A stretch of 64,000 nt of DNA from Arthrobacter sp. C2 (lineage in GTDB: Bacteria; Actinomycetota; Actinomycetes; Actinomycetales; Micrococcaceae), in NCBI GenBank assembly GCA_024207135.1, contig CP042428.1, forward strand, positions 2,480,001 through 2,544,000, written 5' to 3'. Shown here in pieces: positions 16,356 to 30,751 of the stretch. The notes below the pieces were generated by a model, which was given only the letters and a program-made list of their open reading frames with translations, was not told the DNA's origin and searched no databases. Positions within the stretch are counted from its first letter, which is position 1. The number at the start of each line of letters is the position of its first letter. Both the position numbers and the translations under genes were made by a program.

Positions 16356-16500
16356 TCACATGAAACGCGATGCCGTTGCCCATGGAATATCCAGAATGAT
16401 TGCCTAGAGTCGTAGTTGCCTCTTGAAGGTGCGAGTGATGAGAGCACCGGTCGGAAGAATCCCCCCATAATCTTCCGGCCGGTGCTCACCTCTTTAACGG
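16356..16500 (+). repeat. Structured intergenic repeat, copy 1
   Basis: Copy 1 of a 145-151 bp family. Conserved blocks in order: TCACA...AAACG, CATGG, ATCCA, CTAGAGTC (TAGAGT at 16405-16410), CCTCTTGAAGGTGCGAGTGATG, GAGCACCGG, CCGGCCGGTGCTC and TTTAACGG. The final hairpin (16442-16487) has a 17-bp stem, GAGCACCGGTCGGAAGA against TCTTCCGGCCGGTGCTC, with one G-U pair. It is followed by CTCTTTAA, so it should terminate transcription. An upstream GGTGC/GCACC hairpin would compete for the same bases. It lies at the upstream edge of the cre-like cluster. Confidence 0.75.
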
Positions 16501-16828
16501 TCATGTGGACTATGGACGCTCACCGACAGCGGTCCGGCTGCGCCGCGTGCCGGAGTCGCTCGAACAGTTCCTTCGGAACGCGGATGAGTTGGCCGTCCGT
16601 TGGCTCCGTCCGCGCAGACCGACGCCCCGGGAGACGTACCCCGTAGTCCCATTGGAGACGGTCGCAGCCGCCTGGGAAAGCCCCGTTCCCTGTTTGTCGG
16701 ATCGAAGACCAAGATGAACATGCCGAGTCCGGGCACTCCATAATTCCCACGTCCGGCATTAATCAGTGATATCCACCGACGCGAAAACAACCCTTGGGAA
16801 AAACGGGTGCAGGTGCAAGTATGTGCCC
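16501..16828. other. Intergenic region before HD-domain gene
   Basis: No gene is supported here. A minus-strand frame ending at 16520 contains a protein-like stretch (GQLIRVPKELFERLRHA) that might be a degraded gene end, but nothing recognisable surrounds it. Confidence 0.35.
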
Positions 16829-17515
16829 ATGATCAAAGTGCATCCACAGGCCAACCACTTCGGCCTGGACACCTCCAAGCACATCCCACCGCCGATGCCC
16901 GACCTTTTCGAGACCCATCCGCTTCTGGGTGAAATCTGGGGACGGGCCCGGTCCCTGCTGGCCGTGCGGGACAACGATGCCCATACCCTCCTATCCCTGT
17001 CCCTTGCCGCCTCGTTGCTCGATGCACGCCCACAGGCAGAACCGGGAGTGGTGCTGCCGGCCATGATGTTGCATGACATTGGCTGGTCCCAAGTCGAACC
17101 AGGCCTTGTGCTCGCCGCCATCGCCCCCGGCGGGGGGCGTCCGGAACTGGTCCTGCAGCACGAGAAGGAAGGTGCCCGTCTGTCCTCGGAGATCCTCGAG
17201 TCCCTCGGCGTGGATTCACTGGTGATCGAACAAGTCGCGACGATCATCGACGGGCACGACTCCCGCACCCATGCGCTGAACCCCGACGACGAAATCGTCA
17301 AGGACGCCGACAAGCTTTGGCGGCTGACCCCACATGGTCTCGACACCGTCATGGACTGGTTTGGGCTGCATCGCGGACAGGCCCTGCGCCTCTGCTCCTC
17401 ACGGGTGCTTGGAAAGCTCTTCACTCCCGAAGCCACCGTCATGGCCCGTGGGTTGATCGCGCTGGAACAGGCGAACCTTTGGCCCCGAAGCCGGGAACTG
17501 CGCCCGGGCGCCTGA
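16829..17515 (+). CDS. HD domain phosphohydrolase-like protein (CreD-like paralogue)
   Basis: A 228-residue protein with the HD-superfamily pattern: His in NDAHTLLSLSLA, MMLHDIGWSQVE (HD), IIDGHDSR, and Asp in DADKLWRL. It is clearly paralogous to the HD gene at 25472 (IIDGHDTR, MRDADRLWRF), and the two sit at opposite ends of the P450 cluster. By analogy with the cre pathway it could remove the phosphate from aryl phosphates. The start ATG at 16829 is chosen because homology to the paralogue begins near it; a GTG at 16766 is also in frame but has no clear ribosome binding site. Confidence 0.75.
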   Translation: MIKVHPQANHFGLDTSKHIPPPMPDLFETHPLLGEIWGRARSLLAVRDNDAHTLLSLSLAASLLDARPQAEPGVVLPAMMLHDIGWSQVEPGLVLAAIAPGGGRPELVLQHEKEGARLSSEILESLGVDSLVIEQVATIIDGHDSRTHALNPDDEIVKDADKLWRLTPHGLDTVMDWFGLHRGQALRLCSSRVLGKLFTPEATVMARGLIALEQANLWPRSRELRPGA

Positions 17516-17619
17516 AGACACTCCCCCATTCCCATATCCGTTCGGCATCCTCGGCCGGTGCTCGCCTACACTCAAGGATGCACGGCGGATACGTGCAGCT
17601 GAAGGAAGGGGGCCCAACG

Positions 17620-18438
17620 ATGGCCGGTGGAAACCGCGTGCCCGGAAGCACCGTGACTTCCAAGGTCCTTGCCATCATGGAAGTCTTTGAAACCTCGCGG
17701 CGGGCACTGAGCCTGACCGAAATCGCCGAAGCCTCGGGCGTGCCGCTGAGCACCACCCATCGTCTGGTGGGCGAGTTGGTCGATTGGGGCATGCTGAGCC
17801 GCGGGCCCAACGGCGGGATCCAACTGGGGCTGCGACTGTGGGCCATTGCCCAGAATGCGGGGCGCCAACTGCGCGACACCGCCCGCCCCTTCGTCCAGGA
17901 CCTCTTCTCCCTGACCGGGGAGACCAGCCAGCTCGCCGTGCGGGACGGCAACATGGCCCTGTACATCGACCGGGTCTACGGCTCCAAGCGGGTGCCGCGC
18001 GCCTCGCGGGTCGGCGGACGGTTGCCGCTCCATGCCACCGCGGTGGGCAAGGTGATCCTCGCGTACTCCGAGGATTGGGTCACCGATGCCTATCTCGGGC
18101 GCCCGCTGGCCACGGTCACCGGGCACACCCACATCAATCCGACTCGCCTGCGTGCCGAGCTGGCCCAGGTGCGGGAACGGGGCTACGCCACGACCCAGGA
18201 GGAGGTCATCCTGGGCTCGTGCTCGATTGCCGTGCCCGTTTTCCACACCGGTCGCCTGGGTTGCTCGATCGGTCTGGTGGTCTCATCATCCAATGCCGGC
18301 ACCATGACCAGGCACCTGCCCGTGCTCAGGGGTGTATCCCAGCGCATCGAGGCCGCAACGGCACACATCCCGCTGGAAACCCTCTTGGGCAGCGTCACCG
18401 GAGGCGCCCCGCTGCCGCCCATCGACCCCCAGCACTGA
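17620..18438 (+). CDS. IclR family regulator of the P450 cluster
   Basis: A 272-residue IclR protein: winged helix with ALSLTEIAEASGVPLSTTHRLVGELVDWGML (recognition helix S-T-T-H-R-L), then an effector domain with RLPLHATAVGKVILAY and GCSIAVPVFHTGRLGCSIGLVV. GAAGGAAGGGG lies 7 nt before the ATG at 17620; an ATG 14 codons earlier is less well placed. It probably controls the adjacent P450 operon through the inverted repeat at 18445-18460. Its recognition helix matches that of the IclR at 54396, whose sites also end in TGGGAA. Confidence 0.87.
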   Translation: MAGGNRVPGSTVTSKVLAIMEVFETSRRALSLTEIAEASGVPLSTTHRLVGELVDWGMLSRGPNGGIQLGLRLWAIAQNAGRQLRDTARPFVQDLFSLTGETSQLAVRDGNMALYIDRVYGSKRVPRASRVGGRLPLHATAVGKVILAYSEDWVTDAYLGRPLATVTGHTHINPTRLRAELAQVRERGYATTQEEVILGSCSIAVPVFHTGRLGCSIGLVVSSSNAGTMTRHLPVLRGVSQRIEAATAHIPLETLLGSVTGGAPLPPIDPQH

Positions 18439-18444
18439 ACTGTC

Positions 18445-18460
18445 TTCCACTGAGTGGGAA
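18445..18460. promoter_or_regulatory. Putative IclR operator upstream of P450 gene
   Basis: TTCCACTGAGTGGGAA contains a CCACT-G-AGTGG palindrome with outer TTCC/GGAA. It lies 7 bp after the iclR stop and 112 bp before the P450 start. It resembles the sites at 52669 and 54323. Confidence 0.55.
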
Positions 18461-18571
18461 ACTATCCACACGCTTTGCGTGTGTCGTGGGTAACACTTGA
18501 GGCAATGAAAGTTTCGCAGCCCACAATCGGGCGGCGCAACCCCGATCTTCCTTCCTCAAGGAGTCAGTTCC

Positions 18572-19858
18572 ATGTCCAGCAACAACGTCGCAGCGGGGGT
18601 ATGCCCCATGGGTCACGGTGCCGCGGCACCGGCCGACCACCACGGCTATGAACCGTTCACCATGGAAAACCCGTTTCCCTCCTACACGAACCTCCGCAAC
18701 GAACAACCCGTGATGTTCGACGAACGCGTCGGTCTCTACGTGGTCACCCGCTACGACGACGTCAAGGCCGTCTTCGAAGACTGGGAAACCTTCTCCTCGG
18801 AAAACGCCCAGGCCCCCGTGCGCAAGCGCGGCCCGCAGGCCACCAAGATCATGAACGACGGCGGATTCACCACCTACTCCGGGCTCTCGGCCCGCCGTCC
18901 GCCGGAGCACACCCGCATCCGGGCGATCGCGCAAAAGGCCTTCACCCCGCGCCGTTTCAAGGCCCTGGAACCCTCCATCCGCGCCAATGTCATCGATTCG
19001 ATCGAGGTCATGTCGGCCCGCGAATCCGGCACCGGTGACATCGTCAAGGACCTGGCCTATGCCATCCCGACCATCACGATCCTCACCCTCATCGGCGCCG
19101 ATACCTCCCAGGTCGACACCTACAAGCGCTGGAGCGATTCCCGGGCCGCCATGACTTGGGGAGACCTCAGCGACGAGGAACAGATCCCGCACGCCCACAA
19201 CCTCGTCGAGTATTGGGCCGAGTGCCTGCGCCTCGTGGCCCACGCCCACGAGCACGGTGGGGACAACCTCACCGCCGACCTGGTCAAGGCCCAGTCCGAG
19301 GGCGCGGAAATCACCGACCATGAGATCGCCTCGCTGCTCTACTCGCTGCTTTTCGCCGGCCACGAAACCACCACCACGCTGATCTCCAATTGCGTGCGTG
19401 TGCTGCTGTCCCACCGCGAGGCCTGGGAACAGGTGGTGCATAACCCCAAGGCCATCTCCGCGGCTATCGACGAGGTGCTGCGCTACTCCGGATCCATCGT
19501 CGGTTGGCGCCGCAAGGCCCTGAAGGACACCGAGGTCGCCGGGGTCAAGATCCCCGAGGGAGCCGAGCTGTTGTTGCTGATGGGTGCGGCCAACCGCGAC
19601 GAAAACCGTTTCCAGGATCCCGAGGCCTTCGACATCGCCCGGCCCAACGCCCGCGAGCACCTCTCCTTCGGCTTCGGCATCCACTACTGCCTGGGCAACA
19701 TGCTCGCCAAGCTGCAGGCCAAGATCGCCCTGGAGGAACTGACTTCCAGGATCCCGAGCCTGGAGCTCATCGACGGAGAAGGCATCGAGTTCCGCAAGAA
19801 CCTGTCTTTCCGCGTCCCCGAATACGTCAACGTGAGCTGGAAGGAAGCCCAGGCATGA
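18572..19858 (+). CDS. Cytochrome P450 (CreJ-like)
   Basis: A 428-residue soluble bacterial class I P450. Visible motifs: I-helix LFAGHETTTT (oxygen activation), K-helix DEVLR (ExxR), and heme loop FGFGIHYCLGN with axial Cys373. The genes for a [2Fe-2S] ferredoxin and its FAD reductase lie downstream in the same run, giving a complete electron chain. By its company (phosphorylating pair, HD phosphohydrolase, dehydrogenases) it corresponds to CreJ of C. glutamicum, which oxidises the para-methyl group of 4-cresyl phosphate. Exact substrate here is inferred. Its stop overlaps the next start (ATGA). Confidence 0.87.
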   Translation: MSSNNVAAGVCPMGHGAAAPADHHGYEPFTMENPFPSYTNLRNEQPVMFDERVGLYVVTRYDDVKAVFEDWETFSSENAQAPVRKRGPQATKIMNDGGFTTYSGLSARRPPEHTRIRAIAQKAFTPRRFKALEPSIRANVIDSIEVMSARESGTGDIVKDLAYAIPTITILTLIGADTSQVDTYKRWSDSRAAMTWGDLSDEEQIPHAHNLVEYWAECLRLVAHAHEHGGDNLTADLVKAQSEGAEITDHEIASLLYSLLFAGHETTTTLISNCVRVLLSHREAWEQVVHNPKAISAAIDEVLRYSGSIVGWRRKALKDTEVAGVKIPEGAELLLLMGAANRDENRFQDPEAFDIARPNAREHLSFGFGIHYCLGNMLAKLQAKIALEELTSRIPSLELIDGEGIEFRKNLSFRVPEYVNVSWKEAQA

Positions 19859-20949
19859 GTAACAACGACTTCATCGAGTTCTTCAACGGCGGCTCCGAAC
19901 CGAAGCTGGAAAACCTCGGCGGCAAGGGCGCCTCGCTGGTGACCATGACCGCCGCCGGAATGCCGGTTCCGCCCGGATTCGTCGTCACCACCGCGGCGTT
20001 CGACGCCTTCATGGAAGGCGGCATCACTGCTGAAATCAACACCATACTGGCTGGCCTCGACCCAGAGGACGTCAAAGCAGTGGACGCCGCCAGCGCCACG
20101 ATCCGCAAGATGATCACCCAGCGCCCGGTGCCCTCCGCCCTGCGCGAATTCACCAAGGACGCTTACGCCTCGTTGCAGGCGAACTTCGCCCGGGAGGTGC
20201 CCCTGGCGGTGCGTTCCTCGGCCACCGCGGAGGACCTGCCCGACGCCTCTTTCGCCGGGCAGCAGGACACCTACCTCTGGCTCAACGGCTACGCCTCGGT
20301 CACCGAACACATCCGCGCCTGCTGGGCCTCGCTCTACACTTCCCGGGCCATCCTTTACCGACTGAAGAACAACATTCCCGACGAGGGCCTGTCCATGGCG
20401 GTGGTCGTTCAGAAGATGGTCAACTCCGCTGCTTCCGGCGTGGCCATGACCCTGGATCCCACCAACGGAGACCGCTCCAAGATCACCATCGATGCCTCCT
20501 ACGGGGTCGGCGAGATGGTCGTCTCGGGAACCGTCACCCCCGACAACATCCAGCTGGACAAGGTCACCCTGGCCGTCATCACCGAACACATCGGGGCCAA
20601 GCACGCCGAGCTCATCCCGGATCCTGCCACCAACTCCCTGGTGGAGGTCGAGGTCAGCGACGAGCGCCGCGCGGTGCGCTGCCTGTCCGACGTGGACCTC
20701 GCCCTGGTGGCCCAGCTGGCCAAGCGCGCCGAGAAGCATTACGGCTGCCCGCAGGACATCGAGTGGGCGCTGGATGCGGATCTGCCCGAAGGCGAAAACC
20801 TGCTGCTGCTCCAATCCCGCCCGGAGACCGTGCATTCTTCCAAGGCCACCGTGAAGCCGACCGGCAGCGGCTACGCCTCCTCGCTCGGGCTGGGCTCGGG
20901 CTTCAACTTCTCCTCGATCACCTCCTCGTTGTTGAACTCCGCGTCCTAG
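19855..20949 (+). CDS. PEP synthase N-domain homologue (CreI-like, ATP-grasp subunit)
   Basis: A 364-residue protein equal to the N-terminal nucleotide-binding half of PEP synthase: ENLGGKGASLVTM, then [40 protein letters not shown], and QDIEWALD near the end with LLLQSRPETVH closing the domain. It lacks the phosphohistidine and PEP-binding domains. With the next gene it should form a two-subunit enzyme that phosphorylates a phenol with ATP, as CreHI does with 4-cresol and phenylphosphate synthase does with phenol. The last ~30 residues are Gly/Ser-rich. Four-base overlap with the P450 gene. Confidence 0.85.
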   Translation: MSNNDFIEFFNGGSEPKLENLGGKGASLVTMTAAGMPVPPGFVVTTAAFDAFMEGGITAEINTILAGLDPEDVKAVDAASATIRKMITQRPVPSALREFTKDAYASLQANFAREVPLAVRSSATAEDLPDASFAGQQDTYLWLNGYASVTEHIRACWASLYTSRAILYRLKNNIPDEGLSMAVVVQKMVNSAASGVAMTLDPTNGDRSKITIDASYGVGEMVVSGTVTPDNIQLDKVTLAVITEHIGAKHAELIPDPATNSLVEVEVSDERRAVRCLSDVDLALVAQLAKRAEKHYGCPQDIEWALDADLPEGENLLLLQSRPETVHSSKATVKPTGSGYASSLGLGSGFNFSSITSSLLNSAS

Positions 20950-21026
20950 CCGCGTTGCTCCGACCTCCATCGTTTGTCGCTTTTCCCCAACTCCGCAGCA
21001 GCATCTTTTGAAAGGCATCCACCACC

Positions 21027-22892
21027 ATGAGCATGAAATCCTTTCCCAAGCCTTCCGATCTCCAGGTCCCTCCGGGCGCCGAGGGTTGGGAGGAGCTCTA
21101 CCCGTACTACCTGGTGTTCCAGGACGCGCTGAAGGCGGAGGAAGACGAGAAGTTCTGGTTCTGCGATTCGCAGCACTGGCCCACCGTCTTCAAGCCCTTT
21201 GAAACCATTGGCGGGGAATTCGCCGTCAAGTGCCTGGGCCAGTACAACGCCCGCCACCTGATGATCCCCAACGCCAACGGCATCGACTTCCGCATCCACC
21301 TGGGCTACCTCTACATGTCCCCGCTGCCGGTGCCCAGCGAGCAGATCGCCGCCCGTGTCCCGGAATTCGAGGCACGCATCGGCCACTACTTCGCCAACTG
21401 GGATACCCTCCTGGAACAGTGGCACGTGAAGGTCAAGGGCACCATCGCCGAAATGGAAACCCTCACCTTTGAGGCCCTGCCCGACATGGTGCCGATGGCG
21501 GACATCCTCTCCGGCAAGGCCAAGGACGGCTCGGAGGTGCTGCTGGAGAACTACGACCGGCTGATCCAGCTCTGCTACCAGAACTGGCAGTACCACTTCG
21601 AGTTCCTGAACCTGGGCTACATTGCCTACCTGGACTTCTTCAACTTCTGCAAGGAAGTCTTCCCGAACATCCCCGACCAGTCGATCGCCACCATGGTCCA
21701 GGGCGTGGACATGGAACTGTTCAGGCCCGACGACGAGCTCAAGGAACTTGCCGCCCTTGCCGTGGAACTGGACCTTGCCGGCGCGTTCTCCAACACCGAC
21801 GATCCCGCCGCCACCCTTGCCGCGATCGCGGCGTCCCCCGCCGGCGAGCGCTGGCTGGCACGCTGGGAGGAAGCCAAGGACCCGTGGTTCAACTTCACCA
21901 TCGGCAACGGCTTCTACGGGCACGACAAGTACTGGATCGAACACCAGGAGATCCCCCTGGGCTTTATCGCGGACTACATCCACCGCCTGCAGGGCGGGGC
22001 GAACATCATGCGCCCCACCGAGAAGCTGATCGCCGAGAAGGACCGCATCGTCTCCGAGTACCGGGACCTGCTGGATCCCGAAATCCGCGAGGCCTTCGAC
22101 GCCAAGCGCACCCTGGCCGCCACCGCCTACCCCTACGTGGAAAACCACAACTTCTACATCGAGCACTGGACCATGGGCGTGTTCTGGCGCAAGGTCCGCG
22201 AACTGTCCCGCATGCTCCACGCCCAGGGCCTCTGGAACGAACCCGAGGACATGCTCTACCTCGGGCGCAACGAAGTCCGCGACGTGCTCTTCGACCTGGT
22301 CACCTCGTGGGGAATCGGCGCCGGCGACCCGATCGGCAACGTGGTGTGGCCGCAGGAGATCGAGCGCCGCCGCGGCATCGTCGACGCGTTGAAGACCGCC
22401 CGCCCGGCCCCGGCCCTGAACACCCCGCCTTCGGCCATCACCGAACCGTTCACCCGGATGCTCTGGGGCATCACCACCGAACAGGTCCAGCAGTGGCTGG
22501 GCGGGGACGAGGATTCCGAGTCGGGCGTGCTCAAGGGCATGGCCGCATCCCCCGGTCTGGTGGAGGGTATGGCCCGCGTGGTCATGCATGCCGACGACCT
22601 CTCGGAGGTGCAGGCCGGCGAGATCCTGGTCGCCCCGATCACCGCTCCGAGCTGGGGCCCGATCTTCGGCAAGATCAAGGCCACGGTTACGGACATCGGC
22701 GGGATGATGAGCCACGCGGCCATCGTCTGCCGCGAATACGGATTGCCGGCCGTCACCGGGACCGGCAGCGCCTCCACCACCATCCGCACCGGCCAGATGC
22801 TGCGCGTGGACGGTACCAAGGGCACCGTCGAGATCCTCGAGGAGGCTCCCGTGGTCACCGGCCCCGGGGCGCACTCCCACTCGCACGTCTAG
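21027..22892 (+). CDS. PEP-utilising swivelling-domain protein (CreH-like)
   Basis: A 621-residue protein whose C-terminal ~100 residues are the phosphohistidine swivelling domain of PEP synthase: DIGGMMSHAAIVCREYGLPAVTGTG, with catalytic His at about residue 563. The first ~500 residues are an aromatic-rich module not present in PEP synthase; they probably bind the phenolic acceptor, as in CreH and the phenylphosphate synthase alpha-type subunit. It should take the phosphate from ATP via the partner at 19855 and pass it through His563 to the phenol. The start could be either of two nearby ATGs (21027, 21033). Confidence 0.83.
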   Translation: MSMKSFPKPSDLQVPPGAEGWEELYPYYLVFQDALKAEEDEKFWFCDSQHWPTVFKPFETIGGEFAVKCLGQYNARHLMIPNANGIDFRIHLGYLYMSPLPVPSEQIAARVPEFEARIGHYFANWDTLLEQWHVKVKGTIAEMETLTFEALPDMVPMADILSGKAKDGSEVLLENYDRLIQLCYQNWQYHFEFLNLGYIAYLDFFNFCKEVFPNIPDQSIATMVQGVDMELFRPDDELKELAALAVELDLAGAFSNTDDPAATLAAIAASPAGERWLARWEEAKDPWFNFTIGNGFYGHDKYWIEHQEIPLGFIADYIHRLQGGANIMRPTEKLIAEKDRIVSEYRDLLDPEIREAFDAKRTLAATAYPYVENHNFYIEHWTMGVFWRKVRELSRMLHAQGLWNEPEDMLYLGRNEVRDVLFDLVTSWGIGAGDPIGNVVWPQEIERRRGIVDALKTARPAPALNTPPSAITEPFTRMLWGITTEQVQQWLGGDEDSESGVLKGMAASPGLVEGMARVVMHADDLSEVQAGEILVAPITAPSWGPIFGKIKATVTDIGGMMSHAAIVCREYGLPAVTGTGSASTTIRTGQMLRVDGTKGTVEILEEAPVVTGPGAHSHSHV

Positions 22893-22925
22893 GACCGCTC
22901 TCCCCCATAGCGGTTCCGGACGTCC

Positions 22926-22963
22926 GGTGGTGGGCATGGCAACCCAAGGCCCCGCCCACCACC
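22926..22963 (+). terminator. Hairpin between CreH-like and SDR genes
   Basis: GGTGGTGGGC at 22926-22935 pairs with GCCCACCACC at 22954-22963. There is no strong U-tract, so it may be an mRNA-processing or partial attenuation site within the operon. Confidence 0.4.
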
Positions 22964-23021
22964 TCCCCCTAATTCGCCACTCCACAGCATTCGCCCCAGT
23001 GAAAGGCCCCCGGTACAGAAC

Positions 23022-23783
23022 ATGAGCACCGAAGCACACACCCCGCCGGGCACGGTCTTGGTCACCGGCGCCGCAGGAGGCCTCGGCAGGGCCTTCGCCC
23101 TCGGATTCGCCCGGCGCGGCTATGCGGTCGCCGCGGCGGACATCGATCCGGCCGGCACCGCCGAGACCGCAGAAATGGTCCGGGCCGCCGGCGGCCGCGC
23201 CGAGGCCTTCAGCGTCGATGTCACCAGCCCCGCCTCCACCGACGCGCTTGCGGCCCGGGTAGCGGGCTTCGCCGGCGGGCAGGTCCAGGTGCTCATCAAC
23301 AACGCCGCCATCTACGCCACGGTCACCCGCTCGCCCTTCGAGGATATCGACTTCGACGAGTGGGACCGGGTCATGGCGGTGAACCTCAAGGGTCCCTGGA
23401 TGATGGCCCGGGCCCTGAGCCCGCACCTGGGCGCCGGCTCGCGCATCATCAACATGGCCTCGGCCACCGTCTACTCCGGGTCCGAGCAGTGGGCCCACTA
23501 CGTCGCCTCCAAGGGCGGGGTCATCGCCCTGAGCCGGGTCATGGCCAAGGAGCTGGGCCGGCGCGAGATCACCGTCAACACCATCGCCCCGGGCTTCACC
23601 CTCACCGAGGCAAGCTTTGGGCTGATGGAGAACGCCGAAAGCTACGGGGTCGACCGCGGCGCGCTCAAGCGGGCCAGCCAACCCGAAGACATCGTGGGGG
23701 CCGCGCTCTTCCTGGCCGGCCCCGACTCCTCCTTCATCACCGGTCAGACGCTCGTCGTCGACGGTGGCCGCCAGTTCATCTAG
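23022..23783 (+). CDS. SDR family dehydrogenase (CreG-like)
   Basis: A 253-residue classical short-chain dehydrogenase: cofactor loop VTGAAGGLGRAFA, then AADID at the end of strand 2 (Asp favours NAD), INNAAI, catalytic Ser in NMASATVYSG and Y-x3-K in HYVASKGG, and the C-terminal SSFITGQTLVVDGG. In the cre pathway an alcohol dehydrogenase converts the hydroxymethyl aryl intermediate to the aldehyde; this gene fills that slot by position. It may act before or after dephosphorylation. Confidence 0.82.
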   Translation: MSTEAHTPPGTVLVTGAAGGLGRAFALGFARRGYAVAAADIDPAGTAETAEMVRAAGGRAEAFSVDVTSPASTDALAARVAGFAGGQVQVLINNAAIYATVTRSPFEDIDFDEWDRVMAVNLKGPWMMARALSPHLGAGSRIINMASATVYSGSEQWAHYVASKGGVIALSRVMAKELGRREITVNTIAPGFTLTEASFGLMENAESYGVDRGALKRASQPEDIVGAALFLAGPDSSFITGQTLVVDGGRQFI

Positions 23784-23801
23784 AAAGGTAGAACGATCGC
23801 C

Positions 23802-24122
23802 ATGCCTACAGTCCACTTCACCGATGCAGCCGGTGCCACCACCACCATCAACGCCAACACCGGGGACTCGGTCATGGAGACCGCGGTCCGCAACGGCGTC
23901 ACCGCCATCGTCGCCGAATGCGGCGGCTCACTCTCCTGCGCCACCTGCCACGTCTTCGTCGCCGAATCCGACCTGCCGACTCTGGAGCCCATGGGCGAGA
24001 TGGAGGACGAGATGCTCTACGGCACCGCCGTGGACCGCGAGGACAATTCCCGGCTCTCCTGCCAGCTCCGCATGACCGAGGGCCAGGACCTTCACGTAAC
24101 CACACCCGAAACGCAGGTCTAG
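23802..24122 (+). CDS. [2Fe-2S] ferredoxin (CreE-like)
   Basis: A 106-residue adrenodoxin/putidaredoxin-type ferredoxin. The cluster ligands are visible as C-x5-C-x2-C in ECGGSLSCATCHVFV plus a fourth Cys in RLSCQLRM. It should carry electrons from the adjacent reductase to the P450 encoded upstream. It lies 18 bp after the SDR stop and 3 bp before the reductase start, so it is part of the same operon. Confidence 0.9.
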   Translation: MPTVHFTDAAGATTTINANTGDSVMETAVRNGVTAIVAECGGSLSCATCHVFVAESDLPTLEPMGEMEDEMLYGTAVDREDNSRLSCQLRMTEGQDLHVTTPETQV

Positions 24123-24125
24123 GAC

Positions 24126-25424
24126 ATGGAAACGCTCACCGTTCCCTCACTTGCCGGCGCCGACGCGCCGGAGTCGGGGACCGCCACCGGATTGTTGATC
24201 GTCGGAGCCTCCCAGTCCGGGGTGCAACTGGCTATTTCCCTGCGTGCCCTGGGCTACACCGAACACATCACGCTGCTGGGCGACGAGGACCACCGCCCCT
24301 ACCAGCGCCCCGCCCTGTCCAAGGAATTCCTGCAGGACAAGGTCGGTTCCGAGTCCTTGATCTTCCGCACCAACGACTACTGGATCGAACACAACATCAC
24401 CCTCATCAAGGGCGAGCGGATCGAGTCCGTGGACTCAAACACCGACGGCAGCGGGATCGCCCACGGTGCCTCGGGCAGCACCTACCCCTACGCCCGGCTG
24501 GCCCTGACGGTCGGAGCCCGACCGCGCCACCTCGAGGCACCCGGCGCCGAACTGGACGGGGTGGTGTACCTGCGCAACGCCGACGACGCGCTGCGGCTGA
24601 AGGAACTGGCCCCTGCGACCACCGACGTGGTCGTGGTCGGCGGCGGCTTTATCGGCCTGGAGGCCGCCAGCTCGCTGGCCTCCATGGGCAAGCGCGTCAC
24701 GGTGCTTGAATACGGACCGCGGCTGGTGGGCCGGGCGGTTGGCGAGGAAACCAGCGAGTACTTCCTTACCGAACACCGCAAGCGCGGCCTGGACATCCGC
24801 ATCGGCGCCCGCATCGAGCAGATCCTCGATGACGGCCACGGCACCGTGGACGGCGTGCGCCTGGCGGACGGGTCCGGGATCACGGCGCAGATCGTGCTGG
24901 TCGGCATCGGGGTCATCCCCAACACCGAGCTCGGCGAGGCCCTGGGGCTGGAAGTCAACAACGGCATCGTCGTGGACGCCGGGGCGCTCGCCTCCGACGG
25001 CACCACCATCGTCGTCGGCGACGTGGCCAACATGCCCAACCCCGTTCCAGGCGCGCCGAAGGGCGAGCGCATCCGCCTCGAGAGCGTGAACAACGCCATC
25101 GAGCATGCCAAGGTCGCCGCCTATTCGCTCATGGGACGCAGCGAGGAATACGCCGGCATCCCGTGGTTCTGGTCCAACCAGGCGGACATGAAGCTGCAGA
25201 TCGCCGGGCTGTCCACCGGCTTCGATTCCACGGTCATCCGCAAGGATCCCGACAAGGGGAAGTTCACGGTGCTTTACTACCGCAATGGGCGCATCATTGC
25301 TGCCGACGCCGTGAACGCCCCGCTGGATTTCATGGCGGTCAAACAGGCCCTGGCCGCCGGCAAATCCATCGACCCGGTGGCGGCCGCCGATCCGGCCACC
25401 ATGCTCAAGACCCTCATTGCCTAG
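24126..25424 (+). CDS. FAD-dependent ferredoxin reductase (CreF-like)
   Basis: A 432-residue reductase of the putidaredoxin-reductase family. An N-terminal FAD loop (LLIVGASQSGVQLAISLR), a second dinucleotide loop for NAD(P)H (VVVVGGGFIGLEAASSLA), the LVGIGVIPNTEL segment and a C-terminal interface domain (IPWFWSNQADMKLQIAGL) are all present. The first FAD loop reads GASQSG instead of the usual GxGxxG. It should pass electrons from NAD(P)H to the ferredoxin just upstream and on to the P450. Confidence 0.9.
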   Translation: METLTVPSLAGADAPESGTATGLLIVGASQSGVQLAISLRALGYTEHITLLGDEDHRPYQRPALSKEFLQDKVGSESLIFRTNDYWIEHNITLIKGERIESVDSNTDGSGIAHGASGSTYPYARLALTVGARPRHLEAPGAELDGVVYLRNADDALRLKELAPATTDVVVVGGGFIGLEAASSLASMGKRVTVLEYGPRLVGRAVGEETSEYFLTEHRKRGLDIRIGARIEQILDDGHGTVDGVRLADGSGITAQIVLVGIGVIPNTELGEALGLEVNNGIVVDAGALASDGTTIVVGDVANMPNPVPGAPKGERIRLESVNNAIEHAKVAAYSLMGRSEEYAGIPWFWSNQADMKLQIAGLSTGFDSTVIRKDPDKGKFTVLYYRNGRIIAADAVNAPLDFMAVKQALAAGKSIDPVAAADPATMLKTLIA

Positions 25425-25471
25425 CCGCCCTCCCCCACATACTCTCCCTGACGCAAGGAGCCGCACGCGCC

Positions 25472-26176
25472 ATGAACACCCTCACCGACACCGATCCAGG
25501 CGCCGCCTTTGCCGCGGCCTACCCGCAACGTCCCATCCCCGCCCCCGGAAATGTGGACACCACACCGATTTGCCTGACCCCGGGCCTCGAAGCGGACCTG
25601 CTGCCGCTCTGGGCCGCGGTGGTCCCGGAAACCCGGGCGCGCGGCAACGACATCCACCTGCCGATCTCGCTGGCCTTCGCCCGCCGCCTGTGTGACGCCT
25701 ACCCGGAAGCGAACCGCGAGCTGGTGCTCGTGGCAACGCTGCTGCACGACACCGGATGGGCACACGTGGATGAAACCAAGATCATCTCCGAGGGCTTCCG
25801 CGGCGACTGGCGCAAGGCAGGCATCCGCTATGAACACGAACGCCTGGGCTGCGATGTGGCCCGCCGTGTGCTGCCTCCGCTGGGGTACGAGCCCGAATTC
25901 ATCGAGGCGGTCTGCGCCATCATCGACGGGCACGACACCCGCCCGGTGGCCCACTCCTTGGAGGACGCGCTGATGCGCGACGCCGACCGGCTCTGGCGCT
26001 TCGACCACGCCGGCATCGCGCTGGCCGCCGGCTGGTTCTCGCAGCACCCCGCCGCCTATACCGACCGGTTGGAAACCGAGATCATCCCCGAGCTGATCAC
26101 CGAGGCTGCCCTGGACATGGCCTCCACGGACCTGGAACGCTCCCGTGCCCTGCTGCAGACGGCGGTGCTCCGATGA
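25472..26176 (+). CDS. HD domain phosphohydrolase (CreD-like)
   Basis: A 234-residue HD-superfamily protein: ISLAFARRL, TLLHDTGWAHVD (HD motif), IRYEHERLG, CAIIDGHDTR and MRDADRLWRFD give the full set of metal-ligand positions. It sits between the P450 electron chain and the aldehyde dehydrogenase, where the aryl phosphate must be cleaved; the cre pathway uses a phosphohydrolase (CreD) for this step. AAGGAG lies 11 nt before the ATG. Its stop overlaps the aldehyde dehydrogenase start by 4 bp. Confidence 0.8.
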   Translation: MNTLTDTDPGAAFAAAYPQRPIPAPGNVDTTPICLTPGLEADLLPLWAAVVPETRARGNDIHLPISLAFARRLCDAYPEANRELVLVATLLHDTGWAHVDETKIISEGFRGDWRKAGIRYEHERLGCDVARRVLPPLGYEPEFIEAVCAIIDGHDTRPVAHSLEDALMRDADRLWRFDHAGIALAAGWFSQHPAAYTDRLETEIIPELITEAALDMASTDLERSRALLQTAVLR

Positions 26177-27675
26177 GCACCCGGGAGCAACTCGGCGCAG
26201 TGGCCGCTCGTGAGGCGCTTTCTCTTCCCTACCGCCATGTCGACACCCACTTCATCGACGGCGAATGGATTCCCTCCACCTGCGGTGGCCACAACGACGT
26301 CACCGACCCGGCCACCGGGTCGGTGTGGGGTTCGGTCGCCGACGGCACCACCGAAGACCTCGAGAAGGCGGTTCGCTCGGCACGGGCGGCCTTCGACACG
26401 GGTCCTTGGCCGCGGCTGGCCCCGTCCGAACGCGCCGCGGTGTTGCTGCGCATCGCCGATCAGGTCGAGGCCCGCACCACCGAACTGTCACTGACCAACA
26501 CCCTGGAAAACGGCTCCCCGGTCTCCGAGACCCAGGGCGCGGCGGCCAACGCCGCATCCATCTTCCGCTATTTCGCCTCGCTGGCCCCGCTGCTCGAATC
26601 CGAGGACATCCGCCCCTTCCCCAATGGTGCCGGCGAGTCACTGGTGCGCCGGGATCCGGTGGGTGTGTGCGGGTTGATTGCCCCGTGGAACTTCCCGATC
26701 AACCTCATGGTCATCAAGCTGGCTCCCGCGCTGCTGGCCGGGTGCACCGTGGTGATGAAGCCGGCCTCCCCCACTCCGTTGTCATTCAGGATCATCATGG
26801 ATGCGCTGGCCGCCGCCGGCGTTCCGGCCGGTGTGGCAAACCTGGTCACCGGATCCGGCCGCCTGGGCGATGCGCTGGTGCGGCATCCCCAAGTCAACAA
26901 GGTCGCGTTCACCGGATCCACGCCCGTGGGACGCAAGATCGCCGCCGCCTGCGGGGAACTGCTGCGACCGGTGACCTTGGAACTCGGCGGCAAGTCCAGC
27001 GCGCTGGTGCTGCCCGACGCGGACCTGGACGCCATGGGGAACAACCTGATTCGCTCCTGCATGCGCAACACCGGGCAGACCTGCTACATCTCCACGCGCA
27101 TCCTGGCTCCCTCCGAGCGCTACGACGAGGTCGTGGAGCTGGTGACGAACACAATTGCCGCAGCTCCCCAGGGTGATCCGCTGGATCCCGCCACGGTCTT
27201 TGGCCCCTCGGCCACTGCAAGCCAGTACCGGACGGTGCTCGAGTACATCGAGTCGGGCCGGGCCGAGGGTGCCCGCGCCACCACAGGCGGGCACAAGGCG
27301 CAGCTGGGCGGCGACCTGGATGCCGGTTACTTCATTGCCCCGACGGTGTTTGCTGACGTGTTGCCCGGCATGCGGATTTCCCGGGAGGAGATCTTCGGAC
27401 CGGTGGTCTCGATCCTGCGCTACGACGGGATCGATGAGGGCCTCTCGCTGGCGAACAACACCGAGTTCGGTTTGGGCGGCCTCGTCTTTGGCACCGACAT
27501 CGATGCCGCGCAGGCAGCGGCCGAGCGTATGGATACCGGCAGCGTTGGCATCAACTTCTTTGCGTCCAACCACGCCGCGCCCTTCGGCGGGCGGAACGAC
27601 TCCGGCTTGGGTACCGAATACGGTCCCGAGGGGCTGGCCGCGTACCTGAGCTACAAGTCGATTCATCGGCGCTGA
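26173..27675 (+). CDS. Aldehyde dehydrogenase (CreC-like)
   Basis: A 500-residue NAD(P)-dependent aldehyde dehydrogenase. Visible motifs: GLIAPWNFPINL (cofactor), FTGSTPVGRKIAAACG, the catalytic Glu in LELGGKSSALV, the nucleophile Cys in NTGQTCYISTRI, and EEIFGPVVSI. As the last gene of the operon it probably oxidises the para-formyl intermediate to 4-hydroxybenzoate or its phosphate. Repeat copy 2 begins 68 bp after its stop. Confidence 0.87.
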   Translation: MSTREQLGAVAAREALSLPYRHVDTHFIDGEWIPSTCGGHNDVTDPATGSVWGSVADGTTEDLEKAVRSARAAFDTGPWPRLAPSERAAVLLRIADQVEARTTELSLTNTLENGSPVSETQGAAANAASIFRYFASLAPLLESEDIRPFPNGAGESLVRRDPVGVCGLIAPWNFPINLMVIKLAPALLAGCTVVMKPASPTPLSFRIIMDALAAAGVPAGVANLVTGSGRLGDALVRHPQVNKVAFTGSTPVGRKIAAACGELLRPVTLELGGKSSALVLPDADLDAMGNNLIRSCMRNTGQTCYISTRILAPSERYDEVVELVTNTIAAAPQGDPLDPATVFGPSATASQYRTVLEYIESGRAEGARATTGGHKAQLGGDLDAGYFIAPTVFADVLPGMRISREEIFGPVVSILRYDGIDEGLSLANNTEFGLGGLVFGTDIDAAQAAAERMDTGSVGINFFASNHAAPFGGRNDSGLGTEYGPEGLAAYLSYKSIHRR

Positions 27676-27743
27676 TACAGGCCAGCTGTGTGCCGCCGGG
27701 CGGGTGAAAAGCCAATTGCCCGGTGGCACGATGGACACCGCCT

Positions 27744-27893
27744 TCACACCCAACATCATGGATAGGCACATCAAATCCATAGACACTGGCCCTAGAGTCA
27801 TTACTACCTCATGAAGGTGCGAGTGATGCGAGCACCGGCTGGATAACCGATTCAATCCCCGAATCTTCCGGCCGGTGCTCAAACCTTTAACGG
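27744..27893 (+). repeat. Structured intergenic repeat, copy 2
   Basis: Same family and orientation as the copy at 16356. TAGAGT is at 27793-27798. It shares with copy 3 an upstream block, TCACACC...CATGG...GGCACATCAAATCCATAG, at identical spacing (10 nt) from TAGAGT. The terminal hairpin spans 27830-27880: GAGCACCGGCTGGA pairs with TCCGGCCGGTGCTC, with an inner GATTC/GAATC pair absent from copy 1. CCTTTAA follows. It closes the downstream edge of the cre-like cluster. Confidence 0.75.
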
Positions 27894-28070
27894 CATCTTC
27901 CCCGCTTCAAGCCGATGCCGCCCCGGCCGGGAATCGCGAGGGCACCCGGCGACCAGAGGCGCTGCAGCCAAGGGGCCGTCTCGCGGAAATCGCCGGTGCG
28001 TCCCACGAGCGGATCGAGACCGGGGTGCGGGCGGTAGATCCCGGATCGCGCAGGGGGAGGATCCCATGGG
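27887..28070 (-). pseudogene. Possible gene remnant, unidentified
   Basis: A short minus-strand frame reads IYRPHPGLDPLVGRTGDF and then RETAPWLQRLWSPGALAIPG with GC-rich third positions, as in real coding sequence of this genome. It has no clear start and ends inside the last bases of repeat copy 2 (TTTAACGG supplies its stop). I do not recognise the protein. It may be the tail of a gene cut off when the repeat or its neighbour arrived, or a chance frame. Confidence 0.3.
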
Positions 28071-28071
28071 C

Positions 28072-28095
28072 TAGAATTTAGTTGACTCGTCAACT
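28072..28095 (+). promoter_or_regulatory. Promoter with palindromic operator before lipoprotein gene
   Basis: A -10-like TAGAAT (28072-28077) is followed by AGTTGAC-TC-GTCAACT (28080-28095), a palindrome with perfect 7-bp arms at the expected transcription start. Short palindromes of this kind are typical MarR-family sites. The regulator is not in the window. Confidence 0.5.
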
Positions 28096-28129
28096 TTATT
28101 TCTTTCCGGCAACGAACAGGAATCCGACC

Positions 28130-29119
28130 GTGGATAAAAAATCAGCACACCGTGCCGACCGCCTGCGACCCAAGCCAAGAGCGATCACCGTGGTTCTTAC
28201 GGTCCTCGCTTTCGCGCTCGCTGCCTGCGGCACGAACGCCGCGGCCGTCCAAGGCCCCACGTCAAGCGCCCTGGGCCCCGGTCTGCGGATGGGCCCCGTC
28301 GAATTGGTGACGTCGGATCTCGAGGGGCTTCACCGCTTTTACACCGAGGGAGTCGGCCTGACCACACTCAGCAGCGACGAGGATGACGTGATCCTGGGCA
28401 CCGAGGGCACCGAACTTTTCCGCCTGATCGCAGCCGGTTCCCCCGATGCGGCGCCGGATGACTATTCCCAGGCCGGGCTCTACCACTCCGCGTTCCTGTT
28501 CCCGGATGCGACCGAGCTGGCCTCTGCCGTGCTGCGCACAGCGACCCTGAAACCGGACTCGTTCCAGGGTTCCAGCGACCACAAGGTCAGCCATGCATTC
28601 TATTTCGCCGACCCCGAGGGAAACGGTGTGGAACTCTATGCCGATACCCCTGAAGACACGTGGGAGTGGAACGACGGACTCGTGACCATGGGGTCGGCAG
28701 CCCTTGACCCGAACGCCTACATCGCGACGCACCTGGGAAACCGAACGCCAAATGCCAGCGCCAAGGACGTGTCCATGGGACACGTGCACCTGCGCGGCGG
28801 CGACCTGCAGCAAGCCGAGGAGTTCTACGAGGACGGACTTGGATTTGCCGTGACTGCCCGGTCGCAGGGGGCCATCTTCCTGGCGGCCAACGGCTACCAC
28901 CACCACCTTGCCGTCAACACGTGGTCCTCGGCGGGGGCGGGCAAACGCCCCGACTCCCTGGGTCTGCGCACCGTCTCCATCCACGTGGCCGATGTCGCCG
29001 AACTGGATGCCGTCGCTTCCCGTTTGACTGCGCACAAGATCCCGCACGAGCTCGGCAAGGGCACCCTGACGACCCAGGATCCGTGGGGAACCGGGATCAC
29101 GGTGCGCGTCGCGGGCTGA
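28130..29119 (+). CDS. Lipoprotein with two VOC domains (extradiol-dioxygenase-like)
   Basis: A 329-residue protein. A signal peptide with Arg/Lys-rich start, TVVLTVLAFAL core and lipobox LAAC predicts lipid anchoring on the outer face of the membrane. Two VOC modules follow: residues ~45-175 (ELVTSDLEGLHRFYTEGVGL; DPEGNGVELYAD) and ~190-325 (GHVHLRGGDLQQAEEFYEDGLGF; GYHHHLAVNTW). This pattern matches CatE-type catechol 2,3-dioxygenases, which are normally cytoplasmic. Candidate metal ligands include the HVHL and YHS histidines and the Glu of VELY. GTG at 28130 is the start: AGGA lies 8 nt upstream. Confidence 0.78.
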   Translation: MDKKSAHRADRLRPKPRAITVVLTVLAFALAACGTNAAAVQGPTSSALGPGLRMGPVELVTSDLEGLHRFYTEGVGLTTLSSDEDDVILGTEGTELFRLIAAGSPDAAPDDYSQAGLYHSAFLFPDATELASAVLRTATLKPDSFQGSSDHKVSHAFYFADPEGNGVELYADTPEDTWEWNDGLVTMGSAALDPNAYIATHLGNRTPNASAKDVSMGHVHLRGGDLQQAEEFYEDGLGFAVTARSQGAIFLAANGYHHHLAVNTWSSAGAGKRPDSLGLRTVSIHVADVAELDAVASRLTAHKIPHELGKGTLTTQDPWGTGITVRVAG

Positions 29120-29136
29120 CCTCTCGCGCGGACCTC

Positions 29137-29287
29137 TCACACCAAACGCCATGGCCCGGCACATCAAATCCATAGCGTCGCCGCCTAGAGTCGTTACTAC
29201 CTCTTGAAGGTGCGAGTGATGCGAGCACCGGTTGGATACACGATTCCTCCCCCGAATCGTCCGGCCGGTGCTCAAATTTTTAACCGG
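29137..29287 (+). repeat. Structured intergenic repeat, copy 3
   Basis: Third copy, beginning 17 bp after the lipoprotein stop (copy 1 also begins 17 bp after a stop). TAGAGT is at 29186-29191. The terminal hairpin spans 29223-29273: GAGCACCGGTTGGA pairs with TCCGGCCGGTGCTC through two G-U pairs, and an inner CGATTC/GAATCG stem is perfect. AAATTTTTAA follows. The IS30 element begins 15 bp further on. Confidence 0.75.
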
Positions 29288-29335: not shown

Positions 29336-30751
29336 TCAGCTTGCTTTTAGTAAATCACGTAGTTGCTCGCCCGGGGTATTCCAACCGAGTGTTTTGCGGG
29401 GTCGTCCGTTGAGTTGCTGAGCGACGCGTTCGAGTTCCTCCGGGCCGTGGACCGACAGGTCGGTTCCCTTGGGGAAGTACTGGCGCAGCAACCCGTTGGT
29501 GTTCTCGTTGGAGCCGCGCTGCCAGGGACTGTGCGGGTCGCAGAAGTAGACATCCATGTCGGTGGCGATGCTGAAGGCCTTGTGCTTGGCCATCTCCACG
29601 CCCTGGTCCCAGGTCAGCGATCCACGCAGGTGCGCCGGCAGGGTGCTCATGGTCTTGATCAGCCCGTCACGCACCGTTGCGGCCGTATGGTCGCCCGGCA
29701 AATGGACGAGCATGACGTAGCGGGTGGTGCGTTCCACGAGGGTGGCGATGGCCGATTGGTTGTGGGCCCCGGTGATGAGGTCGCCCTCCCAATGCCCCGG
29801 GACTGCGCGGTCTTCGACCTCTGCGGGGCGCTCGGAAATGTTGATCATCGGGTCGCGGAACCGACTGGTTCGTTCCTCGGGGTTCTTGTGCTTTTTCCGG
29901 CGCGTGCGTCCTGTGCGCAGTGCGTTGTCGACCTCGCGCTTCAGCCCGCCGCGGGGCTGGTAATAGAGGGCCTGGTAGATCGTTTCGTGGCTCACGCGCA
30001 TCTCGGGGTCATCGGGGAAATCCTTGATCAGGGCATGGGATATTTGTTCCGGGGACCAATACAGTTTCAGCATCGCGACGACGGCGTCGCGCAGCGGCCC
30101 CTGGGCTGCCAGCTTACTGGGCTTGGGCCGGGCCCGGGCCTTGGTGGCGGACCGCTGGGCGCCGTGGGGCTGGTATCCGAGCCTGGGGTGGGAGTTGCGC
30201 TTGATCTCTCGGCTGATGGAGCTGGGGCTTCGTCCCAGTTCCCGGGCGATGGCCCTGATCGACTTCTTGGCGCGGAGCATGTCGGCGATCAGTTCCCGCT
30301 CTTCGTGGGAGAGGTAGCGCGCATCGATGACCAGCTCAAGGTCCTCAATACTCACCGGCGCCGGCGCCGGAAGCTGCAGCGGGGCCGGTGCCGGTGCCGT
30401 GGAGGGCTCCGCATCCGCGGGCGGCTCCGGAGCCGCCAGGAGCCCTTCTCCCGGCTCCGGCACCAGGGCCAGCACCGGAGCCATGGGTGGGGCGGTAGGT
30501 GGCTCCGCAGCGAGCCGGGCCATGGTGTCGGATTCGGCAAAGGCAGTAGTCACCTGACAGTTATACGCGATGCTGGTGTCATCGTTTGCATCGGGTTGGG
30601 CATTGGCCGCGCGGGCGGCCTGGTCCCAGTCGTAGCCGGTGCGCCGGTTGATGCCCACGGCCGCGGAAGCGGCCTTCTGCGTGGCCCCCGCCTCCCGCAA
30701 TCGCATGTATTCCGCCCGCCTGCCGGAGCGGTCCTGCGGGATGTTTTCCAC
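29336..30751 (-). CDS. IS30 family transposase (main catalytic frame)
   Basis: 471 residues from a GTG, though the frame probably starts upstream through a frameshift. It contains an HTH (ATQKAASAAVGINRRTGYDW), a Pro/Ala-rich linker, a second IS30 HTH (LSHEERELIADMLRAKKSIRAIARELGRSPSSISREIKRN), then the DDE core: GHWEGDLITG (D1), TWDQGVEMAKH (D2) and the Glu in GSNENTNGLLRQYFPKGTDL. All catalytic residues are intact, and the protein ends normally (LGWNTPGEQL). Confidence 0.85.
   Translation of the reverse strand: MENIPQDRSGRRAEYMRLREAGATQKAASAAVGINRRTGYDWDQAARAANAQPDANDDTSIAYNCQVTTAFAESDTMARLAAEPPTAPPMAPVLALVPEPGEGLLAAPEPPADAEPSTAPAPAPLQLPAPAPVSIEDLELVIDARYLSHEERELIADMLRAKKSIRAIARELGRSPSSISREIKRNSHPRLGYQPHGAQRSATKARARPKPSKLAAQGPLRDAVVAMLKLYWSPEQISHALIKDFPDDPEMRVSHETIYQALYYQPRGGLKREVDNALRTGRTRRKKHKNPEERTSRFRDPMINISERPAEVEDRAVPGHWEGDLITGAHNQSAIATLVERTTRYVMLVHLPGDHTAATVRDGLIKTMSTLPAHLRGSLTWDQGVEMAKHKAFSIATDMDVYFCDPHSPWQRGSNENTNGLLRQYFPKGTDLSVHGPEELERVAQQLNGRPRKTLGWNTPGEQLRDLLKAS

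Follow-up and report, generated by a model that had tools for sequence, protein, structure and literature searches.

Small RNAs (sRNAs) of Actinobacteria outside mycobacteria, corynebacteria and Streptomyces are, to our knowledge, little catalogued. The 6C RNA (RF01066) is recognized by two hairpins with C-rich loops. Among proteobacteria, a Neisseria genome reportedly encodes several nearly identical sibling sRNAs, the C-rich sequence of which is directed at Shine-Dalgarno (SD) sites, and the alphaproteobacterial CUCCUCCC-type sRNAs are further sibling anti-SD sRNAs. The element considered here is an intergenic repeat present three times in a 64,000-nucleotide (nt) stretch of Arthrobacter sp. 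C2 (contig CP042428.1, positions 2,480,001-2,544,000; hereafter the window), the host genome being a single contig of 4.56 Mb. The copies lie at 16356-16500, 27744-27893 and 29137-29287 of the window, exactly where the earlier note on this DNA, which proposed a small-RNA or attenuator family, had placed them. We rate the element as a putative new sRNA family of a kind already known, that of sibling sRNAs with an anti-SD sequence.

In common with 6C RNA, the family is a predicted small actinobacterial RNA with C-rich hairpin loops, two of which are often found in its long variants; the present family is, however, multi-copy and has a conserved 5′ domain, which four 6C matches in other genomes (L110-L113) lack. 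In the place of two C-rich hairpins, the window copies show a 5′ hairpin with a CUCWUGA-type loop and a single C-rich terminator loop. RF01066 did not reach its gathering score in the window, was absent from the sub-threshold matches at copies 1 and 3, and matched none of the 15 genomes of the host genus (own genome included) at an E-value (E) of 0.001 or better; with no match in the host genus and a different sequence, 6C RNA was rejected. Longer variants in several other genera (L099, L100, L101, L106, L108, L109, L120) possess two downstream hairpins, often with two C-rich loops, and look like 6C RNA with an added 5′ domain. The ctRNA_pGA1 family (RF00236) is alike in its succession of a hairpin and a terminator hairpin, but its matches at copies 1 and 3, the two copies examined below threshold, are sub-threshold (18.0 and 19.1 bits versus a gathering score of 45) and the copies here are chromosomal. 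Across Rfam 15 (4227 families) not one gathering-score match was obtained in the window, in line with the earlier note, which had recognized no named family, and no paper naming the RNA family in its title or abstract opening was found in the open-licence PMC literature. With the proteobacterial sibling anti-SD sRNAs the family shares several near-identical copies per genome and C-rich sequence, although the phylum is another and the likeness is one of features only, with no sequence relation claimed. Four sRNAs have been reported for Arthrobacter oxidans KQ11 (PMC6696678).

A family of predicted sibling small RNAs

On balance, the family probably consists of sibling trans-acting sRNAs that stand under the control of a PhoP/OmpR-type regulator and pair with ribosome-binding sites. 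The gene-like anatomy, the conservation, the covariation of the terminator stem, the periodicity of the promoter, the multi-copy, family-wide distribution and the anti-SD sequence are all observed. Several homologous copies occur per genome, each with a predicted promoter (-10 box) of its own. The three window copies are built alike: a promoter-like region leads to a TAGAGT box, after which come approximately 23 nt of conserved sequence and a long GC-rich hairpin with a short U-rich tail. The parts are as follows (window coordinates, all on the plus strand; RNA ends are inferred).

16356..16395, +, copy 1 promoter region, degenerate here; the family shows TCACAG-like units with an 11-base-pair (bp) pitch from -62 to -23 relative to the core (A/G)CCUC
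16405..16410, +, copy 1 -10 box TAGAGT
16415..16499, +, copy 1 predicted sRNA, 96.1 bits; predicted start approximately 5 nt past the -10 box, predicted end after the TTTAA tail
16418..16440, +, copy 1 conserved 5′ domain GCCTCTTGAAGGTGCGAGTGATG
16442..16487, +, copy 1 terminator-like hairpin, loop ATCCCCCCATAA
27744..27783, +, copy 2 promoter region, degenerate 11-bp-phased units
27793..27798, +, copy 2 -10 box TAGAGT
27803..27892, +, copy 2 predicted sRNA, 106.6 bits
27806..27828, +, copy 2 conserved 5′ domain ACCTCATGAAGGTGCGAGTGATG
27830..27880, +, copy 2 terminator-like hairpin, loop AATCCCC
29137..29176, +, copy 3 promoter region, degenerate 11-bp-phased units
29186..29191, +, copy 3 -10 box TAGAGT
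29196..29285, +, copy 3 predicted sRNA, 108.7 bits
29199..29221, +, copy 3 conserved 5′ domain ACCTCTTGAAGGTGCGAGTGATG
29223..29273, +, copy 3 terminator-like hairpin, loop CTCCCCC, followed by AAATTTTTAA

The string CCTCTTGAAGGTGCGAGTGATG, which had been described as shared by all three copies, is exact in copies 1 and 3, while copy 2 reads CCTCATGAAGG. All three possess terminator hairpin arms GAGCACCGG...CCGGTGCTC and fold far more stably than dinucleotide shuffles, with z-scores of -4.58, -6.30 and -6.07 for copies 1, 2 and 3, respectively, and none of 200 shuffles equalling the native fold for any copy. The own genome, searched by pattern as well as by model, harbours five strong copies, the three of the window and two more approximately 0.4 Mb away (copies 4 and 5, fetched locus L001 1487-1584 and 1930-2026). 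These two additional copies, the 11-bp phasing of promoter units, the family-wide distribution and a subtype with a perfect anti-SD sequence go beyond what the earlier note had recognized.

RNA structure and conserved 5′ domain

Two covariance models were used, R1, built from the five copies of the own genome, and R2, built from 111 matches. After subtraction of 13 antisense rows from 127 model matches, 114 copies were retained; removal of near-identical promoters left 95 de-duplicated copies, 48 from the host genus and 47 from outside. Loop and accessibility counts refer to 94 copies, as one de-duplicated copy without the standard core was skipped.

As the earlier note had pointed out, the inner stems of the window copies pair in spite of sequence differences; the inner stem GATTC/GAATC is, however, common to copies 2 and 3, and three copies alone are therefore thin evidence of compensation. 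This evidence is supplied by the family alignment (111 sequences, 107 distinct), which substantiates the proposed selection on RNA structure: in the terminator stem 96.5% of cells are paired, and every one of its 13 pairs has double changes. Over the complete structure, the paired cells amount to 97.0% as compared to 30-47% in slid controls, and the double-changed cells to 258, versus 39.6 (shuffles) and 28-71 (slid controls). Having been fitted to the structure of the model, the alignment leans towards it, with the slid controls nevertheless far lower.

The 5′ domain, (G)UAACUACCUC-loop-AAGGUGCGAGUGAUGA or, as RNA, UACCUC-loop-AGGUGCGAGUGAUGA, is nearly invariant from ACC onward throughout the 114 copies as well as the 95 de-duplicated ones. 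Its ultraconserved part AGGUGCGAGUGAU may bind a protein or another RNA. In the host genus, exact complements of the core reside mostly on sRNA copies, with single other sites at G001:C8:63864, G005:C12:732758 and G004:C287:1289; a one-mismatch variant, ATCACCCGCACCT, recurs in several genomes; in the own genome it falls, by eye, within a reading frame. The 16S rRNA tail was considered as a pairing partner of the core and rejected, with 136 and 91 of 1000 shuffles performing equally well.

Promoter region and candidate regulators

The proposal that TAGAGT fits the actinobacterial TAnnnT -10 element is borne out by the family, as a TAnnnT is positioned within 2 nt of its expected place in 113 of the 114 copies and at the exact place in 85, an exact placement that occurs by chance at 0.06% of 5000 random window positions. 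Upstream of the box, the 95 de-duplicated copies match themselves best at a lag of 11 (0.355 versus 0.214-0.275 at the other lags from 5 to 17), and the 47 copies from outside the host genus display the same periodicity (0.39 versus at most 0.27). Stacked at 11 bp, the family consensus reads TCaCA, a weak second unit, CaCAG and CacAG, the last unit ending approximately 10 bp before the -10 box. The phased direct repeats are thus a property of the family consensus, single copies being degenerate.

According to PMC4832192, PhoP of Mycobacterium tuberculosis binds direct repeats of TCACAGC separated by a 4-bp spacer, and runs of three and of four motifs have been reported to be bound as well. The promoter unit described here is alike in sequence and has the same 11-bp pitch as this repeat; unlike in the M. 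tuberculosis promoters, the units here are degenerate, and as regulators there are candidates only. Among nine OmpR-type DNA-binding domains encoded by the own genome, two (L234, IVESYISYLRRK; L237, NIVELYISYLRKK) have a recognition helix close to the PhoP contact residues given in that source, which makes them candidate regulators. MtrA, the motifs of which are loosely conserved direct repeats of 5-6 nt (PMC5650626), is a possible alternative regulator of the promoter.

The phosphate pho box was rejected as the promoter unit. A TTCACC/GTTAC-type repeat is found at six of 17 pstS loci of the host genus and the exact CACAG pair at none of the 17; the one pstS locus fetched from the own genome has neither. 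As the repeats at these loci are of a different type and the CACAG pair is absent, the regulator is probably not the phosphate regulator.

Two subtypes and the anti-Shine-Dalgarno sequence

Two paralogous types can be distinguished. In type A the 5′ domain contains ACCUC in most copies and is usually followed by C-rich sequence; of the 80 de-duplicated copies, 71 have C4 or CCTCC there, some of it within stems. In type B the 5′ domain reads ACCUU, and the terminator region of 13 of the 15 de-duplicated copies contains CCUCCUU, the anti-SD sequence of the own genome's 16S rRNA, which is retained while the flanking stem changes between genera. The CCUC element to which the earlier note had ascribed possible pairing with ribosome-binding sites is present, and type B has a perfect anti-SD. 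In the minimum-energy folds of type B, part of CCTCCTT is paired in many copies; of 94 copies, 52 have CCC in the loop that the script selected.

Distribution

The covariance-model search of relatives suggested in the earlier note identified the family almost throughout the Micrococcaceae. At an E cut-off of 0.01, R2 matched 181 of 197 Micrococcaceae genomes, covering 31 of 32 genera, with 1-10 matches each and a single match in many positive genomes. The proposal of an sRNA-like family with a -10 box of its own is supported. Outside the host genus, too, copies have the box along with compensatory changes, features the lack of which had been linked to a dispersed repeat or terminator. Of the 16 misses, 12 are genomes of genus g6, where every sampled genome lacks a match, while g3 accounts for three and g45 for one; the misses in g6 and g3 represent apparent lineage-specific loss or divergence, and these genera without matches could help to find the role of the RNA. 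R1, at a cut-off of E 0.1, matched 33 of 59 genomes, consisting of 15/15 of the host genus, 18/22 other Micrococcaceae (three of these only at E 0.03-0.09) and 0/22 from other families.

Beyond the family, matches look like chance in all six instances inspected. A strict pattern applied across the order matched 12 of 297 genomes, nine of 24 within the family and three of 273 outside, the latter three being unrelated by eye: one falls within a reading frame, another where a gene may start and the third next to an unrelated palindrome. Across the class, R2 matched 10 of 394 genomes, five Micrococcaceae and five weak others (E 0.0008-0.008) out of at most 388 non-family genomes, as 364 unmatched genomes were not split by family, a number close to chance expectation; three of the five weak matches were inspected and rejected as they lack the core. 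Exact matching of a degenerate 25-base pattern to 84,980 genomes gave 67 stretches, 66 of them in records titled Micrococcaceae or genera thereof, the family having been looked up for six of the genera. The remaining stretch is situated on contig WNZI01000012.1 (L213), labelled Vibrio cholerae 35D; as this contig has a GC content of 69% and shares 84% identity with an Arthrobacter contig over 5.7 kb, the record is mislabelled or contaminated.

Proposed mechanism and alternatives

Each locus would constitute a complete small-RNA gene of approximately 85-125 nt, usually present in several sibling copies. The TCACAG-like, 11-bp-phased units would be recognized by a response regulator of the OmpR/PhoB family whose specificity resembles that of PhoP. 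Pho-box promoters dispense with a -35 element, and activation of transcription from the TAnnnT box may proceed in the same way. The RNA would begin a few bases past the -10 box with the 5′ domain and end at the structured terminator hairpin, often exposing C-rich or CCUCCUU sequence. Acting in trans, it would have no long unique seed; instead, ACCUC together with the C-rich loop would pair with the SD sequences of mRNAs, which is predicted to lower the translation of the target mRNAs. Transcription and its ends, the regulator, the SD pairing and the sign of the effect are what we infer from the sequence. More far-reaching, and doubtful in our judgement, is the idea that one response regulator switches on the bank of sibling RNAs, with the anti-SD subtype and an ultraconserved, partner-binding 5′ domain together setting translation initiation globally in Micrococcaceae.

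Several observations weigh against the proposed mechanism. The promoter units are degenerate, with AG at -25 in 73 and at -36 in 43 of the 114 copies, and a strict two-unit CACAG pattern combined with the -10 box matched nothing in the 15 host-genus genomes, the sRNA copies included; as these copies themselves fail the pattern, the search for a regulon by the two-unit box is uninformative. The hairpin does end in the U-rich tail that had been described, yet the run is weak, consisting of 3-5 U (CTCTTTAA, ACCTTTAA, ATTTTTAA). The first hairpin is paired in 98.5% of cells and almost invariant; as no pair shows double changes, its pairing is unproven. ACCU is predicted to be mostly paired, with a mean unpaired probability of 0.27-0.35 in the 94 copies. 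C-rich sequence is not universal, as nine of the 80 type-A copies lack C4 or CCTCC and some C4 runs reside in stems. Finally, AGGUGCGAGUGAU has no evident conserved complement beyond the sRNA copies in the 15 host-genus genomes, whether exact or with one mismatch, and the longest conserved stretch is thus unexplained by simple antisense pairing.

It is this last point, along with the conservation of the 5′ domain over more bases than an SD-pairing seed needs, that speaks for a protein-binding or ribosome-mimicking RNA, in which the 5′ domain would titrate either a protein that binds RNA or a factor related to the ribosome, with the terminator loop of secondary importance. Nine bases of the domain (GAAGGTGCG) are also found 28 nt before the 3′ end of 16S rRNA, and the type-B copies of the host genus repeat the 16S tail CACCTCCTT. 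The likeness to 16S rRNA is, however, weak and was chosen after the fact: among 5000 dinucleotide shuffles 82 and 60 (type-A variants), 17 (type B) and 942 (a variant without G) reach the score, as do 22-103 of 2130 window segments, and mimicry of 16S helix 45 was rejected on these grounds. We regard such a role as unlikely. A dispersed repeat or plain terminator without an RNA of its own is considerably less probable still. The strong hairpin with its short U-tail, the several copies in many genomes and the position of the copies shortly after upstream reading frames, with copies 1 and 3 starting 17-18 bp and copy 2 69 bp past the stop codon, would suit it; the TAnnnT box, the 11-bp-phased units and the near-invariant 5′ domain are superfluous for a terminator. 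Nor does the distribution resemble that of repetitive extragenic palindromes or miniature inverted-repeat transposable elements, as positive genomes have 1-10 matches, in many cases a single one, while the family is near-universal in Micrococcaceae and type-B copies have conserved neighbours. A blastn search of plasmid and phage collections with copy 3 as sole query gave no match at the sensitivity used.

The cis-acting attenuator with two mutually exclusive folds, the other possibility raised by the earlier note, is very improbable. The window copies do permit pairing between GGTGC and GCACC, and copies 1 and 2 precede same-strand frames (HD domain, 16766; glyoxalase domain, 28082), so position alone does not exclude attenuation there. 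GCACC is, however, kept in the terminator arm of 35 of the 48 host-genus copies but only 5 of the 47 other copies, copy 3 is followed by an opposite-strand transposase, and neighbours vary between copies. Hardly credible is a translated mini-open reading frame, a leader or small protein starting from the GUG or AUG of GAGUGAUG: AAGGUG does precede GUGAUG by a few bases with SD-like spacing, but by eye whole subtypes have AUC or AUU in place of AUG, and neither the frames nor the stops agree from copy to copy, copies 1-3 among them.

If the family indeed consists of sibling sRNAs as proposed, its occurrence in most sampled Micrococcaceae, often in several copies, and a promoter suggestive of a single kind of regulator make control and targets directly testable in harmless soil strains. 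The paralogous types A and B, the latter with its perfect anti-SD, provide a natural test of target choice by actinobacterial sRNAs, and Rfam gains a ready seed alignment.

Genomic context

The neighbouring genes differ from copy to copy. Copy 1 is preceded by an MFS gene, its likely same-strand neighbour downstream being the HD-domain frame 16766-17515, while copy 2 is situated between an aldehyde dehydrogenase gene and the same-strand glyoxalase-domain frame, and copy 3 between that same glyoxalase-domain frame and the opposite-strand transposase. Copy 4 lies after a thiolase gene, and the divergent copy 5 follows at a distance of 443 bp, ahead of an aldo-keto reductase gene. The type-B copy adjoins an aldo-keto reductase gene in 15 of 15 host-genus genomes and also in two other genera (L080, L086), and type-B copies near this gene are usually flanked on the other side by a conserved small reading frame.

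The transposase directly beside copy 3 (29336-30751, minus strand) has HTH_38 and rve domains, and from this make-up we take it to be IS30-like; no similar protein was present in 61 other loci compared. The approximately 11 kb between copies 1 and 2 (16500-27740) include genes for an HD-domain protein, an IclR-type regulator, a cytochrome P450, a ferredoxin-reductase-like protein and an aldehyde dehydrogenase. As neighbouring sRNA copies are only approximately 1.5-2.2 kb apart in the relatives G010 and G006, part of this region has been gained in the own genome or lost in the relatives. Between the sibling copies 4 and 5, an acidic frame of 50 residues (MSEKPIGDEEDV...; L001 1722-1874), which may represent a small protein, was recovered by tblastn in 17 fetched loci (14 from the host genus and three from other genera), all of which contain a type-B copy.

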